From Roseicella sp. DB1501 (GTDB lineage: Bacteria; Pseudomonadota; Alphaproteobacteria; Acetobacterales; Acetobacteraceae): a DNA stretch of 64,000 bases. Of this stretch, positions 13,330 through 18,716 are shown one piece after another (positions within the stretch are counted from its first letter, which is position 1; every line of letters starts with the position of its first letter). The notes under the pieces are model-generated. The model made no database searches. It was not told the origin of the DNA and was given only the letters and a program-made list of their open reading frames with translations. A program made the position numbers and the translations under genes. The stretch covers positions 62,001-126,000 of the forward strand of contig NZ_JABFHG010000013.1 in the NCBI RefSeq assembly GCF_013112485.1. The letters run 5' to 3'.

Positions 13330-14802
13330 TCAGCGGCCCTCACCAGGGCCGCTTCCCTCCGGCGCCGAGGCCGGGATGGCGGGGCCGCCCTCGCGGCGGA
13401 CGCGGGCGACGATGTCGGCGAGGTCCCGCCGCTGCGCCTCCAGCCGCTGCTGCGAGGCGACGATCTCGCCCTGCAGCCCGTCGCGGCGCCGCTCCAGCGA
13501 GGCGACCTCCGCCCGCAGCGACTCCACGCTGCGGCGAAGCTCCGCCTCGTCCCTCGCGCCCTTGTCGAGCGCGGCGAGGGCGCTGCGCCGCTCGGCGAGC
13601 GCCTTATCGGCCTCCGCCGCCTCCGCGCGGGCGGCCTGCAACCGCTGCTCCTCGGCCGCCGTGCCGCTGCGCAGCTCCGCCAGGCGGCGTTCCGCCGTCC
13701 CGATCTCGGTCCGCAGCTCGGCGCTGCGCTGCTCGAGGCCGCGCAGGGTCGCCGCGGCCTGGTCACGCGCGGTGCCGAGCCGGGCGAGCTCCGCCTCGGC
13801 CTGGCCGACGGCGTTGCGACGCTCGGCGAGCGTCGTCTCGGCCGCCGTCACGCCCTGCCGCAGCGAGGCGAGGCGCGCCTCGGCCTCGGCGCCGCCGCGG
13901 CTGAGCTCGGCGGAGCGGCTCTCCAGCCCCTTCACCCGCCGGTCGGTCTCCTCGGCCGCCTGGTTGCTGCGGGCCAGCCGGCCATTCGCCTCGGTCAGGG
14001 CGCGCTCGGTGGTCGAGACCTGGTCGCGCAGCGCGGCGAGGCGCTTCTCGGCCTCGCTGCCGGCCTGGCGCCGCTCGGCGAGCGAGCGCTCAGCCTCGGT
14101 GACGCTGCTGCGCAGCGCCTGCAGCCGCTGCTCCTCCTGCGCCACCCGCTCCCGCTGGCCGGCCAGATTGCGATCCTCGGTCGCCGATTGCGCGCGCAGC
14201 CCGGCCAGGCGCTGCTCGGCCGCCGTGGCCTCGTTGCGCAGGGTGGCGAGGCGGCGGTCCTCGGCGGCGATCCGGTCGGTGAGGGCGCTCAGCCGGCCAT
14301 CCTGCGCCGTCACCTGATCGCGCAGCCCGGCGAGGCGGCGATCCTCGGAGCCGGCCTGGTCCTGCAGCAGGCCCAGGCGCTTCTCGGTCTCGACCAGCGC
14401 GCCGCTGCGCTCGGTCCGCGTCTGCTCGAGCTGCCCGGCCTCTGCCTGTACCCCAGCGAGCCGCTGCTCCTCCGCCTCAAGCTGCGCCCGCTGCTGCCGC
14501 AGCTCGGCCTCCGCATTGGCACGGCCGCGCTGGGCCGCGACGAGCGAGGCCTGCGCCCGCTGCAGCTTGGCCTGCAGGGCGGCGAGATCGCCCGCGGCTT
14601 GGCGTTCCTGGCCGAGCGTCCTTTCCAGCTCGGCCACGCGCTGGCGCAGCGCGCCGCCCTCGGATTGCGAGAGGGCGAGCTCCTGCTGCAGCCCCTCGAC
14701 CCGCTCCGTGCGCTCCACGCTCAGGCCGCATCCGGCCAGCATCGGCAGCGCGGTCCCCAGCATGAGCATCGCCGGTCCCGGCCGGCGCGACGACGACTGC
14801 AT
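13330..14802 (-). CDS. Lipoprotein with long 14-residue-repeat coiled coil
   Basis: A 490-aa protein with no named family recognised. The start at 14802 (GGGGGAG 7 nt upstream) gives a signal peptide with lipobox LAGC (Cys25), so it is probably lipid-anchored to an envelope membrane. The remainder is almost entirely Ala/Arg/Glu/Gln/Leu-rich helix without Pro until the last 25 residues, i.e. a rod-like coiled coil. Residues about 112-279 are a regular 14-residue repeat (see the repeat entry). It could serve as a periplasmic spacer or tether. It converges on ada, and an 8-bp hairpin (GCGGCCCT, loop CACC) spans the gene end at 13333-13352. Confidence 0.7.
   Translation of the reverse strand: MQSSSRRPGPAMLMLGTALPMLAGCGLSVERTERVEGLQQELALSQSEGGALRQRVAELERTLGQERQAAGDLAALQAKLQRAQASLVAAQRGRANAEAELRQQRAQLEAEEQRLAGVQAEAGQLEQTRTERSGALVETEKRLGLLQDQAGSEDRRLAGLRDQVTAQDGRLSALTDRIAAEDRRLATLRNEATAAEQRLAGLRAQSATEDRNLAGQRERVAQEEQRLQALRSSVTEAERSLAERRQAGSEAEKRLAALRDQVSTTERALTEANGRLARSNQAAEETDRRVKGLESRSAELSRGGAEAEARLASLRQGVTAAETTLAERRNAVGQAEAELARLGTARDQAAATLRGLEQRSAELRTEIGTAERRLAELRSGTAAEEQRLQAARAEAAEADKALAERRSALAALDKGARDEAELRRSVESLRAEVASLERRRDGLQGEIVASQQRLEAQRRDLADIVARVRREGGPAIPASAPEGSGPGEGR
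13966..14469 (-). repeat. Twelve in-register 14-residue (42-bp) coding repeats
   Basis: Inside the coiled-coil lipoprotein, twelve consecutive 14-residue units can be laid out without gaps. Examples are DRRLAGLRDQVTAQ, DGRLSALTDRIAAE, DRRLATLRNEATAA, EQRLAGLRAQSATE and EKRLAALRDQVSTT. Each is two heptads with Leu at fixed positions. The DNA copies have diverged, so this is an old repeat under structural selection and not a recent minisatellite. Confidence 0.75.
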
Positions 14803-14992
14803 GATTTCTCCCCCATGCCCCCAGACGGGCCCCCAAGACGCGGCATGGCGCCCGCTGGCGGTCACAGGGTCAATCATTCACACGCCTCGGCGTGGCGTGA
14901 GCGCCATCACGATCCTGTTGGTCGCAGACCCGCGGCCGGCGGGTCCGTCGCCGCCGGCCGCGGGCTGGCTGGTCGCGTGACGGACGGACCGA

Positions 14993-15379
14993 TCAGGGAG
15001 GGGGAGCGCCGCCGCCGGCCCGCTCCACCTCGGCATTGCTGATGCCGCCCATGATGCGGCCGGTGCCGGGCTTGATCGGCGCCTGCACGCCGGGACCCGG
15101 CTTGGTGCGCTGGACCTCGGCATTGCTGATGCCGCCCATGATGCGGCCGGTGCCGGGGACGATCGGCGCCTGCGCACCGGTGCCCTGGGGCACGCGCTGG
15201 ACCTCGGCATTGCTGATGCCGCCCATGATGCGGCCGGTGCCCGGCACGATGGGCTCGGCGGCGCTCGCACCCGGGGTTGGGGCCATGGCCGCCGACGGCG
15301 GCGGACGGTTCTGGCAGGCGGTGAGCGCCAGCAGGCTCGCGGCCAGTGCGACGGGGCCTGCCAGATGAAACTTCGTCAT
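14993..15379 (-). CDS. Small lipoprotein with three 29-residue repeats
   Basis: A 128-aa protein starting at the ATG at 15379. The signal peptide ends in a lipobox LTAC (Cys22). After a Pro/Ala linker come three nearly identical units of 29 residues, each containing PGTGRIMGGISNAEV with a variable linker (for example QRVPQGTGAQA). The core is strictly conserved while the linkers drift, which suggests a repeated binding or assembly unit. I do not recognise the family. The gene lies between the coiled-coil lipoprotein and pyruvate kinase, all on the - strand, but spaced over 100 bp from each. Confidence 0.7.
   Translation of the reverse strand: MTKFHLAGPVALAASLLALTACQNRPPPSAAMAPTPGASAAEPIVPGTGRIMGGISNAEVQRVPQGTGAQAPIVPGTGRIMGGISNAEVQRTKPGPGVQAPIKPGTGRIMGGISNAEVERAGGGAPPP
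14996..15253 (-). repeat. Three 87-bp tandem coding repeats
   Basis: Near-identical blocks (CGGCATTGCTGATGCCGCCC on the + strand) recur at 15031, 15118 and 15205, exactly 87 bp apart, matching the 29-residue protein period. High DNA identity suggests recent duplication or gene conversion, so copy number may vary between strains. Confidence 0.85.
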
Positions 15380-15501: not shown

Positions 15502-17139
15502 CTATTTCACAGTCGCCACCCGGAGCGCATTGGTGGTCCCGGCCGTGCCGAAGGGCACGCCGGCAGTGACCACCACCTCCTCGCCGGCGGCGGCGAAGCC
15601 CTCCTGCAGCGCCGCCCGGGTCGCCTTGGCGACCATGTCGCTCATCGCATGCGGCTCCTGCGTCACCACCGGATGGACGCCCCAGACCACGGCGAGGCGA
15701 CGGGCGATCTCCATGCTGGCGGTGAGGCCGAGGATCGGGCAGTCCGGCCGCTCGCGGGCGACGCGGAAGGTGGTGCTGCCGGTGCTGGTGAAGGTGGCGA
15801 TCACCTGCGCCCTGATGGTGTGCGCCACCTGCCGGGCGGCGGCGGCGATGGCGCCGGCGCTGGTCGGCTCTGGCTCGGGCCGTGCCGTGTCCGTCATCCG
15901 GCGCCAGTCGGCATCCTGCTCCACTCGGGCCAGGATGCGGTCCATCATGTTGACCGCCTCGAAGGGGTACTGGCCGGCGGCGGTCTCGGCCGAGAGCATC
16001 ACCGCATCGGCCCCGTCGAAGACGGCGGTCGCCACGTCGGAGGCCTCGGCGCGGGTGGGGGCGGGGGCGGCGATCATGCTCTCGAGCATCTGCGTCGCCA
16101 CCACCACCGGCTTGCCGGCCGCCTTGGCGGCGCGGACGATCCGCTTCTGGATCAGCGGCACCTCCTCGGGCGGGCATTCCACGCCGAGATCGCCGCGGGC
16201 GACCATGACGCAATCGGTCAGGGCCATGATGGCGTCCAGGTTCTCGACCGCCTGCGGCTTCTCCATCTTCACCATGATCAGCGCGCGGCCATCGACGATG
16301 CGCTTGGCCTCGGCCACGTCCTCCGGCCGCTGGACGAAGGAGAGGCCGACATATTCGATCCCGTGCCCGAGGATGAAGGCGAGATCCTCGCGGTCCTTTC
16401 CGGTCAGCGCCGGGATGGGCAGGGCGACATCGGGGACGTTGACGCCCTTGCGGTCGGAGAGCGCGCCGCCGACCACCACCTCGGTCTCCAGGTGGTCACC
16501 GCGCACATGGGTGACGCGCAGCCGTAGCTTGCCGTCGTCGAGCAGCAGGCTGGTGCCGATCTGCGCCGCCTTGATGATCTCCGGATGCGGCAGCTCGACG
16601 CGGCTGACATTGCCGGGCGTCGGGTTGAGGTCGAGGCGGAAGGGCTGGCCGGTCTGCAACTGCACCCTGCCGCCCTGGAAGCGCCCGACCCGCAGCTTCG
16701 GGCCCTGCACGTCGGCGAGAATGCCGATGGGCCGGCCGACCTTCGCCTCGACGGCACGGATGATGGCGATCCGCTCGGCATGGTCGGCATGGGTGCCGTG
16801 CGAGAAATTCAGCCGGAAGACATCGGCGCCGCCGCGATGCAGCCGCTCGATCACCTCGGCCGAGGAGCTGGCGGGGCCGAGCGTGGCGACGACCTTGGTC
16901 CGCCGGCGGCGGCGGAGCGGGATGCGCGGGGCCATGCGAAGCTTCCCTTCGGGCGGCGGGTGGAGATCCGGGCGGAGCTGGTAGGGCGGCAGCTCAAGCA
17001 GCCGCGACAGCTCCATGACCCGGTCCGCCGGGATGCGCTGCCATTGCGACACGGCGGCGGGGGTGATGCCGAGGGCGGTCGCGATCTTCGCGCCGGTGCC
17101 ACGGCGGTTCAGCAGATCGTCGAGGATGGCGTCTCTCAT
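15502..17139 (-). CDS. pyk: Pyruvate kinase with N-terminal Cro-like HTH domain
   Basis: The first 65 residues form a Cro/YdaS-type helix-turn-helix (GAKIATALGITPAAVSQWQ, then DRVMELSRLLELPPYQLRPD). After a short linker, KLRMAPRIPLRRRRRTKVVA begins a full-length pyruvate kinase: RLNFSHGT, LADVQGPKLRVG, VKMEKPQAVENL (phosphoryl-transfer Lys), VARGDLGVE, ATQMLESM. It makes pyruvate and ATP from PEP and resembles TtuE beside the tartrate/glycerate genes. The ATG at 17139 has AGGA 8 nt upstream; an ATG at 17148 is three codons earlier. An internal ATG at 16935, preceded by GAAGGGAAG, could yield kinase alone. The HTH fusion to a glycolytic enzyme is unusual. Confidence 0.85.
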   Translation of the reverse strand: MRDAILDDLLNRRGTGAKIATALGITPAAVSQWQRIPADRVMELSRLLELPPYQLRPDLHPPPEGKLRMAPRIPLRRRRRTKVVATLGPASSSAEVIERLHRGGADVFRLNFSHGTHADHAERIAIIRAVEAKVGRPIGILADVQGPKLRVGRFQGGRVQLQTGQPFRLDLNPTPGNVSRVELPHPEIIKAAQIGTSLLLDDGKLRLRVTHVRGDHLETEVVVGGALSDRKGVNVPDVALPIPALTGKDREDLAFILGHGIEYVGLSFVQRPEDVAEAKRIVDGRALIMVKMEKPQAVENLDAIMALTDCVMVARGDLGVECPPEEVPLIQKRIVRAAKAAGKPVVVATQMLESMIAAPAPTRAEASDVATAVFDGADAVMLSAETAAGQYPFEAVNMMDRILARVEQDADWRRMTDTARPEPEPTSAGAIAAAARQVAHTIRAQVIATFTSTGSTTFRVARERPDCPILGLTASMEIARRLAVVWGVHPVVTQEPHAMSDMVAKATRAALQEGFAAAGEEVVVTAGVPFGTAGTTNALRVATVK

Positions 17140-17156
17140 GGACGGCATCCTAGGCG

Positions 17157-17209
17157 GCTTAAGCTTCGGCTTCCAGGCTTAAGTTAGGTCATCGAAGCTT
17201 AACATTAAG
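17157..17209. promoter_or_regulatory. Putative operator array upstream of HTH-pyruvate kinase
   Basis: In this GC-rich genome the 53 bp before the pyk start are AT-rich and hold CTTAAG at 17158, CTTAAG at 17178 and CTTAAC at 17198, exactly 20 bp apart, plus ATTAAG at 17204. TTAAGCTTCG (17159-17168) and CGAAGCTTAA (17193-17202) are also a perfect 10-bp inverted repeat. Placement directly before a gene encoding an HTH domain suggests autoregulation. It lies between the glycerate kinase stop and pyk. A further CGAAGCTT is at 16937, by the internal start. Confidence 0.6.
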
Positions 17210-17226: not shown

Positions 17227-18534
17227 TCAGCCGATCAGCACCGCCCGCACATCGTTCACATTGGTCAGCGTCGGCCCGGTCACCACCAGATCGCCCAGCG
17301 CTCGGAACAAGCCGGTGCTGTCATGCCCCGCCAGCGCCGCCTGCGGGTCGCGCCCGAGCGCCCGCGCGCGCGCCAGGGTATCCGGCGTGGCGATCGCCCC
17401 CGCGGCGTCGGACTTGCCGTCGATGCCGTCGGTGTCGCAGCAGAGCGCCCAGACACCCGGCGCGCCGTTCAGCGCCAGGGCGAGGCCGAGCAGCGTCTCG
17501 GTGCCGCGCCCGCCCTCGCCGGCGGGGCCGTCGATCGTCACCGTCGTCTCGCCGCCCGAGAGCAGCACGGCGCCGCGCCCGACCGGCTCGCCATGCGTCG
17601 CGGCGGAGAGCGCGATGCCGCCCAGCACCCGGCCGAGCTCCCGCGCCTCGCCCTCCAGCGCATCGCCGAGGATCAGCGGCGCGAGGCCGAGCCGCCGCGC
17701 CTCCTCGGCCATCGCCCGCAGCGCCATCAGCGGGGTCGCGATCATCCGCAGCTCGGTGCCGGCGAGGCGGGGATCGCCGGGCTTCGGCGTCTCGTCCTCC
17801 GCCGCCTCCAGATGCCGCATCGCCGCCGCCGGCAGGCGCATGCGGTAATGCGCCGCCAGCGCCTGCGCCTCGGCGAAGCTGGTGGGGTCGGCGACGGTCG
17901 GGCCCGAGGCGATGACCGCCGGATCGTCCCCCGGCACGTCGGAGATGGCGAGGGTCAGCACCCGCGCCGGATGCGCCGCCGCCGCCACCCTCCCGCCGGA
18001 GAAGGCCGAGAGGTGCTTGCGGATGCAGTTCATGGCGTCGATCGGCGCGCCGCAGCGCAGCAGCTCGCGGTTCACCGCGATCAGGTCGTCGAGCGTGAGG
18101 CCGGGCGCGGGGAGGGTGGAGAGCGAGGAGCCGCCGCCCGAGACGAGGAAGAGCACGAGGTCCTCGGCGGCGAGGCCCTGCACCGCGGCCAGGATCTCGG
18201 CCGCCGCGGCGGCGCCATGCGCATCCGGCACCGGATGGCTGGCGAAGCGCACCGGGATGCGACGGTGCGCGGGCGGGTCCGGCAGGTCGGCACCATGGGT
18301 GGTGATGACGAGCCCGCCGAGCGACACCTCGGGCCAGGCCTGCTCCACGGCCAGCGCCATCTTCGCCGCCGCCTTGCCGACCCCGACCACGACGACCCGG
18401 CCCCGCCGCGGCGGCGGGGGCAGATGCGGGCCGAGCACGGCGAGCGGGTCGGCGGCGCGCACCCCGGCCTCGAAGAGCTGGCGCAGCGCCGCGCGCGCCG
18501 TGGCGTCGTTCCAGCTGCCGCTCGGTCCAGCCAT
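17227..18534 (-). CDS. Glycerate 2-kinase (MOFRL family, TtuD/GckA-like)
   Basis: A 435-aa enzyme of the glycerate kinase type-2/MOFRL family, which phosphorylates D-glycerate, usually to 2-phosphoglycerate; older literature calls TtuD a hydroxypyruvate reductase. Visible family features are GVGKAAAKMA, THGADLPDP-like, LVLFLVSGGGSSL (substrate loop), NCIRKHLSAFSGGR, ISDVPGDDPAVIASGPTV and the MOFRL end CCDTDGIDGKSDAAGA. The start at 18534 has GGAGG 6 nt upstream. The product feeds enolase and then the adjacent pyruvate kinase, a logical route for tartrate, glycolate-derived glycerate or serine-cycle carbon. Confidence 0.88.
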   Translation of the reverse strand: MAGPSGSWNDATARAALRQLFEAGVRAADPLAVLGPHLPPPPRRGRVVVVGVGKAAAKMALAVEQAWPEVSLGGLVITTHGADLPDPPAHRRIPVRFASHPVPDAHGAAAAAEILAAVQGLAAEDLVLFLVSGGGSSLSTLPAPGLTLDDLIAVNRELLRCGAPIDAMNCIRKHLSAFSGGRVAAAAHPARVLTLAISDVPGDDPAVIASGPTVADPTSFAEAQALAAHYRMRLPAAAMRHLEAAEDETPKPGDPRLAGTELRMIATPLMALRAMAEEARRLGLAPLILGDALEGEARELGRVLGGIALSAATHGEPVGRGAVLLSGGETTVTIDGPAGEGGRGTETLLGLALALNGAPGVWALCCDTDGIDGKSDAAGAIATPDTLARARALGRDPQAALAGHDSTGLFRALGDLVVTGPTLTNVNDVRAVLIG

Positions 18535-18716
18535 GGCATCCTCCCCAGTCCCCCTGCCTTCTCCCTCTCCCGCGGCCATGCCGCCAGGGGTGGGATGGGG
18601 AAGGGGGCGAAAAAACCATCCACGGCACGGGCGGATGCAGGCCGGTCCCGCCGGCGGTGGCGCGCAACCCGCTTCGCCGCCGCCGCGTTGAGCGCCCTTC
18701 CCCGATGGAGATTGGC

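Follow-up and report, generated by a model that had tools for sequence, protein, structure and literature searches.

The locus described here lies in a 64,000-nucleotide stretch of DNA from Roseicella sp. DB1501 (the window), in which a pyruvate kinase gene (pyk) carries an additional N-terminal helix-turn-helix (HTH) domain and is preceded by operator-like boxes and a glycerate kinase gene. Its features, in window coordinates, are as follows.

15502..17139 (-): HTH–pyruvate kinase fusion gene, likely ATG at 17139, 545 aa (open frame, conserved MRD start)
15517..15852 (-): pyruvate kinase C-terminal domain (PF02887, E 2e-34)
15952..16905 (-): pyruvate kinase barrel domain (PF00224, E 2.6e-108)
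16909..16959 (-): linker, variable between species and predicted to be flexible (pLDDT < 50 at residues 62-75; pN/pS 0.75)
16933..16935 (-): internal ATG, a probable remnant of the ancestral start of pyk (SD-like stretch; the match to many non-fused pyk genes begins nearby)
16960..17139 (-): Cro/YdaS-type HTH domain, its recognition helix ending in AAVSQW (Pfam P22_Cro/YdaS, AF2, Foldseek)
17147..17152 (-): probable -10 box TAGGAT, with the transcript start at or beside the ATG (leaderless), from the position of TANNNT
17149..17163 (-): putative proximal operator CTTAAGCCGCCTAGG, a one-mismatch CTTA-N7-TAAG (same place in 62/68 fused genes and 15/18 phage cro genes)
17178..17183 (-): middle CTTAAG box of the 20-bp array
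17198..17209 (-): distal box CTTAATGTTAAG of the 20-bp array
17227..18579 (-): glycerate kinase (DUF4147 + MOFRL, from Pfam), the upstream neighbour, whose gene ends just before the box array

Downstream of pyk there is a small predicted lipoprotein-like frame (15000-15270) with three near-copies of GTGRIMGGISNAEVQR, and beyond it a long coiled-coil-like protein with degenerate repeats (13330-14877, -), for which all Pfam matches fall below the cut-offs.

The frame from 15502 to 17148 (-) is open throughout and gives 548 aa in the window's ORF translation; translation is more likely to start at the ATG at 17139 (MRD...) than at 17148. The MRD start is aligned in 67 of 68 fused genes from the family, and in the other one (L093) MRD lies five codons further up; with this start all 68 begin with ATG, and most have a stop codon a few codons upstream of it. 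Pfam places P22_Cro and YdaS_toxin at residues ~14-63, followed by PK and then PK_C, and NCBIfam assigns the non-HTH remainder to pyruvate kinase (TIGR01064). The AF2 model of the whole protein has a mean pLDDT of 82.4, with a well-formed kinase portion. The claim of a preliminary description of this DNA, that an HTH domain is in frame with a complete pyruvate kinase, is thus borne out by the open frame and the Pfam domains.

The kinase part appears to be intact. The motifs RLNFSHG, GPKLR, KMEKP, ARGDLG and ATQMLES, which we take to be the catalytic motifs of pyruvate kinases, are kept in 45 aligned sequences, single positions excepted. The fusion gene gives the sole PF00224 match in its own genome, and the fact that it is the only pyruvate kinase found there suggests that the predicted kinase is active. 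In a fold search, the closest described enzymes are the pyruvate kinases 7oo1 (Pseudomonas aeruginosa) and 7ueh (Zymomonas mobilis), at 52-56% identity; both share the complete barrel and C-terminal domains, whereas the fusion carries in addition the predicted N-terminal DNA-binding domain.

The head is assigned to the P22 Cro/YdaS type of HTH by sequence matches to P22_Cro and YdaS_toxin that lie barely above the curated cut-offs (32.0 bits against 30.2, and 30.7 against 30) and by a fold match with a weak E-value. Its best solved folds in Foldseek are 3bd1, Cro of prophage Xfaso 1 (E 0.015), and the YdaS structure 8co2 (0.046), with P22 Cro itself (1rzs, E 0.36) ranked lower, all of these E-values being weak. 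AF2 gives the HTH a pLDDT near 90 in the full protein and 89 when modelled alone. The AAVSQW of the recognition helix is identical in all 68 fused genes. The HTH has a mean pN/pS of 0.46, which lies between those of the kinase (0.30) and the linker (0.75), as averaged over 2048 pairs that are not independent; the linker, for which AF2 predicts disorder, differs in length among the fused genes.

The architecture was also sought in relatives. With the N-terminal 81 residues as query, 147 of 397 Acetobacteraceae genomes gave an HTH match, and in 68 of these the match lies within a pyruvate kinase frame (two such frames, L039 and L064, being cut by contig ends); a kinase match at E <= 1e-60 was found in 376 of the 397. 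A scan of named genomes covered 84,980 species, one genome each, with the seed peptide pattern [GN]I[ST][TP]AAVSQ. All of the 80 loci kept, the best of 98 relatives, run into pyruvate kinase, 79 of them as judged by motif; the remaining locus (L165) has a variant kinase motif, and its frame nonetheless reads as HTH–pyruvate kinase. The 68 family genomes and the 80 named loci are partly overlapping sets. In the named set the fusion records bear the names Roseicella, Paracraurococcus, Dankookia, Belnapia, Siccirubricoccus, Roseomonas, Neoroseomonas, Falsiroseomonas, Roseococcus and Humitalea; two fusion-bearing metagenome bins carry the label Asaia bogorensis, and others just Rhodospirillales or Alphaproteobacteria (several records). 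Among 24 genomes of other families no single match spanned HTH and kinase, and 20 of them had a kinase match. In a set of 385 genomes of the class that includes few from the family, HTH matches came from 15, and the frames read (L239-L243, L245, L246) are not pyruvate kinases.

Some of these frames join a similar head to other proteins. At L239:1459-2271 a Cro/YdaS-type HTH is fused to a TorD/NarJ-like chaperone (Nitrate_red_del, Pfam-tested), and the same combination can be read from translations in L240, L241, L243 and L246, in several alphaproteobacterial families. In one genome, L245:1-1722 (-) has a YdaS/Cro-type HTH in frame with an NAD(P)HX epimerase/dehydratase (YjeF_N + Carb_kinase), directly downstream of two TAAGCATAACTT repeats that resemble an operator pair; this may be another instance of a housekeeping enzyme that carries an HTH.

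The extent of the fusion disposes of one objection to it, namely that an assembly or sequencing error masks a stop between two genes. A hidden stop between the HTH and kinase parts was looked for, and none is present in the window gene or in the 68 fused genes; relatives with two separate genes and a conserved stop are likewise absent among those read. Because the same open frame is shared by the 68 genomes and the 80 named loci, an error, or two genes separated by a stop, can be ruled out, and the chance that we assign to it is negligible.

A different objection is that the HTH stretch is not translated, the protein starting at the internal ATG at 16935 and the upstream palindrome described below being a mere promoter feature. 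That ATG had been proposed in the preliminary description as the start of a kinase-only form, and it does have an SD-like stretch; an ATG at the junction is kept in only 44 of the 68 fused genes (with SD-like sequence in 39), so the kinase-only isoform was dropped as a conserved feature. The junction ATG with its SD-like sequence would suit an untranslated head. Against this, 24 of the 68 genes have no junction ATG, and 13 of these have no ATG, GTG or TTG there; the HTH has GC values of 0.76, 0.52 and 0.86 at codon positions 1, 2 and 3, with no stops in 68 frames; and both its pN/pS and its invariant recognition helix speak for a translated domain. We therefore regard an untranslated head as very improbable. 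The internal ATG is probably a leftover of the ancestral pyk start. The tail motif of glycerate kinase is found upstream of 42 of the 68 fused genes and of 38 of 52 non-fused pyk genes; the arrangement thus looks ancestral, and the junction ATG would be the relic of the old start. The suggestion that the HTH acts on the glycerate kinase gene is unsupported, this gene being an old upstream neighbour of pyk at fused and non-fused loci alike, and so is the suggestion in the preliminary description that the enzyme reports PEP/pyruvate or ATP state.

The DNA upstream of the fusion gene was described at the outset as an operator-like array at the gene's own promoter, with three CTTAA boxes (17158, 17178 and 17198) exactly 20 bp apart. 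The spacing is as stated, and none would be expected in 100 shuffles of the window. Comparison with relatives shows that what is conserved across the clade is a palindrome, CTTA-N7-TAAG, centred at -16/-17 from the ATG, of which the triple 20-bp array is a local form. With up to one mismatch, this proximal site is found in 62 of the 68 fused genes (47 exact), centred at -16 in 52 and at -17 in 10. The operator-like character of the site is therefore upheld at the sequence level, and the idea that the array is kept wherever the fusion is kept holds for the palindrome in those 62 genes, while the exact CTTAA triple is confined to the genus. The six genes in which no proximal site is seen within one mismatch are L003, L006, L010, L053, L058 and L094, two of them in the window's own genus.

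A second, distal CTTA-N7-TAAG, at about -50 to -62, is present in 47 of the 68 (39 exact), the window being without it. Both copies occur together in 43 of the 68, at 37-42 bp from each other, a range that argues against strict helical phasing. Palindromes are confined to these two zones in the up to 800 bp scanned upstream. In the named set, 73 of the 80 loci have the proximal and 62 the distal copy. In L008 the stop codon of the glycerate kinase gene, as judged by eye, lies inside the distal site; in such relatives a bound complex might stop read-through from the glycerate kinase gene. As to the local form, all five genomes of the window's genus have TTAAG-N15-TTAAG-N15-TTAAG, with at most one mismatch, at the fused pyk; elsewhere in these five genomes, at up to 2 mismatches, it stands at just one place, in genome G004. 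Matches with 2 mismatches mean little by themselves, since the reversed control gave 10 matches at <=2 mismatches in three of the five.

There is a hint that head and operator have varied together. The subclade whose HTH has P or A at position 27, to which the window belongs, is without exact distal palindromes; of its 16 exact proximal sites, 14 have A as the base after CTTA, against 9 of 31 where position 27 is T (Fisher p 0.0002, mainly reflecting one split of the tree among non-independent sequences). Position 27 and this base (as seen in L002-L007 and L037-L053) are a possible specificity pair.

The proximal operator appears to sit on the promoter itself. A TANNNT beginning at -14 to -11 of the ATG occurs in 58 of the 68 fused genes; its background frequency is 0.4% (1360 positions), and the excess is partly the operator's own doing, bases being shared with the operator half-site. 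A TTG near -35 is found in 19 of the 68, against 6% of the background. A scan of the window for consensus sigma-70 promoters called none. Because of the position of the -10 box, the transcript is likely to be leaderless, starting at or beside the ATG. The putative proximal operator overlaps the -10 box of this leaderless-looking promoter, so that a Cro head sitting there should prevent transcription from starting.

The origin of this arrangement is suggested by the nearest stand-alone relatives of the HTH, which are phage cro genes. Viral contigs yielded 35 relatives, with up to 52% identity over the whole HTH. In 15 of the best 18 (L248-L265), CTTA-N7-TAAG is centred at -16/-17 (13 exact, 2 with one mismatch), or in 13 of 16 when counted by distinct upstream sequence; L259 and L261 have no palindrome, and the copy in L257, with one mismatch, is at -12. 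The operator of the fused genes is thus, in its sequence, the same as that of the phage cro genes, and its geometry relative to the ATG is also the same. In the two phage contigs tested (L248 and L255), the divergent gene encodes a CI-like HTH_3 protein. Stand-alone relatives in bacterial genomes (L097, L099 and L101; 69-73 aa) also lie beside a divergent HTH_3 repressor, L097 itself being without a Pfam match; L099 has CTTACCGCCGGTAAT at -16 in the scan, and in L097 and L101 a TTA-N7-TAA palindrome can be seen there by eye. Beside the window gene, a divergent CI-type repressor is absent, and a same-strand glycerate kinase gene lies upstream instead. P22-type Cro/YdaS regulators (PF14549, PF15943; 3bd1, 1rzs, 8co2) resemble the fusion in HTH sequence and predicted fold and in a palindrome over the gene's own promoter, which in the phage genes closest to the fusion stands at the same distance from the ATG; they differ in having a short tail where the fusion has a metabolic enzyme, which has no CI-like partner diverging beside it. 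Going beyond the preliminary description, we suggest that the HTH, taken together with its promoter and operator, resembles a phage cro unit that has been captured.

Non-fused relatives provide a control for the link between head and operator. The set comprises 52 pyk genes from the best matches (20 + 12 + 20), against about 308 family genomes with an unfused kinase; two of the 52 come from genome G169, which has three close pyruvate kinase copies (L111, L115 and one more place), and three come from other families. None of the 52 has the palindrome at the -16 place (upstream of L024 just 159 bp are available, and L103 is partly masked); lone one-mismatch sites occur farther up in two, at -219 from the kinase in L023 and at -133 in L308. 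In the kinase tree, 29 of the 52 non-fused genes are nested in the fused clade (support 0.80, some inner nodes being weak), and parsimony gives 7 changes of state. With the operator in 62 of 68 fused genes and in none of these 52 non-fused genes across the changes, head and operator come and go together. Our reading is one gain with several losses of both, repeated gain or transfer being the alternative history. As many members of the clade are without it, the fusion is dispensable.

This joint behaviour also bears on whether the operator is bound by some other regulator, a separate Cro- or CI-like protein, with the kinase head a passenger or a DNA tether. Some of these genomes do hold further Cro/YdaS-type HTH genes that could play this part. 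Such a separate regulator would leave unexplained the joint presence and absence of site and head across the 7 changes in the tree, the phage cro genes of the same subfamily with the same operator at the same position, and the invariance of the recognition helix, and we consider it distinctly improbable.

Further targets were sought across the family. The tandem operator pattern is found in 26 of the 397 genomes, once in each, and in 25 of them at the fused pyk, with none in the reversed control; the only tandem palindrome away from pyk (G322) lies in AT-rich sequence that resembles a terminator. Exact sites gave no sign of a wider regulon: the 17-mer RCTTAN7TAAGY occurs at 0-3 places per genome in 22 fused genomes, never above the reversed control (and equal to it in G178 and G310). 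Seven loci with such places away from pyk were read, and the one place that recurs (L151, L154) is inside an ABC-permease coding region. In the window's own genome there is no exact copy of RCTTAN7TAAGY, and one-mismatch places number 27 against 123 for the control. As no second conserved target appears with the exact patterns, the HTH-kinase looks like a one-gene autoregulator.

Autoregulation is, then, the best reading of the fusion and its operator array, as far as sequences can tell, and we think it quite probable that a captured phage promoter–operator–cro unit before pyk has given an enzyme that limits its own gene by repression. The early promoter, operator and cro gene of a temperate phage would have been captured before pyk, with the glycerate kinase gene as neighbour; because the frame of cro continued into pyk, the resulting pyruvate kinase would bear a Cro head. 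Transcription would begin at or beside the ATG, with the operator over the -10 box. Pyruvate kinases are tetramers in known structures; once enough HTH-kinase had accumulated, the Cro heads, paired by the tetramer, would occupy the copies of the operator and obstruct RNA polymerase, and the pyruvate kinase would in this way cap its own level.

To this a further step can be added, which does not exclude autoregulation: in a metabolite-gated trigger enzyme, a ligand of the kinase (PEP, AMP or sugar phosphates) would move the Cro heads nearer together or farther apart and thereby open or close the promoter, so that pyk would receive a report of the glycolytic state. Pyruvate kinases have T and R states, and T-state entries are among the fold-search matches; in the fusion, the C-terminal domain and the catalytic motifs are kept. 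There is also a precedent for ligand response in an HTH joined to a kinase fold, as a report on BzdR describes (PMC3602430). The predicted disorder and variable length of the linker weaken mechanical coupling, and the unfixed spacing of the operators is also mildly against a tight mechanical link. Such gating is possible, and we hold it only tentatively. Rather unlikely in our view is a still wider scheme, in which glycolytic state is coupled to gene control through the borrowed phage switch, tetramer-held Cro heads bridging the operators and ligand-driven movement gating their binding. In the same scheme, the abundant enzyme, whose head has CTTA-N7-TAAG in common with cro genes on phage contigs, may also permanently repress early promoters when related phages enter the cell.

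DNA-binding trigger enzymes such as PutA, NadR and BirA have enzymatic and operator-binding parts in one polypeptide, with folds that differ from those of the fusion; we know of none in which a phage cro unit was captured along with its operator and a leaderless-type promoter. In the HTH–pyruvate kinase, the domains predicted for catalysis and for DNA binding both look intact by sequence within one polypeptide. That regulators can arise by the joining of an enzyme to a DNA-binding domain is a standard view, and to our knowledge natural intermediates with an intact enzyme seem few. The nearest described fusion that we found is BzdR, an XRE-type HTH joined to a shikimate-kinase-like domain, for which an origin by fusion is proposed and an artificial chimera serves as a model of the bifunctional stage (PMC3602430). 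BzdR and the fusion are alike in the succession of HTH, linker and kinase fold; the same source reports that the kinase domain of BzdR binds benzoyl-CoA and has no detectable kinase activity, whereas the fusion has kept its kinase motifs and is the only pyruvate kinase found in its genome (PMC3602430). From its sequence the HTH–pyruvate kinase appears to represent such a bifunctional stage in nature, built from another kind of kinase and a head of phage origin. No description of an HTH–pyruvate kinase was found in the literature searched, most subscription journals and all preprints lying outside that search.

The finding is of interest because a core glycolytic enzyme, with its catalytic motifs kept, appears to have taken over a phage switch together with its operator, in at least 68 species-level genomes. 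It points to a route for the domestication of whole phage regulatory units. Sister species without the head provide a natural experiment: a comparison between species could show how the head affects flux and the level of pyruvate kinase.
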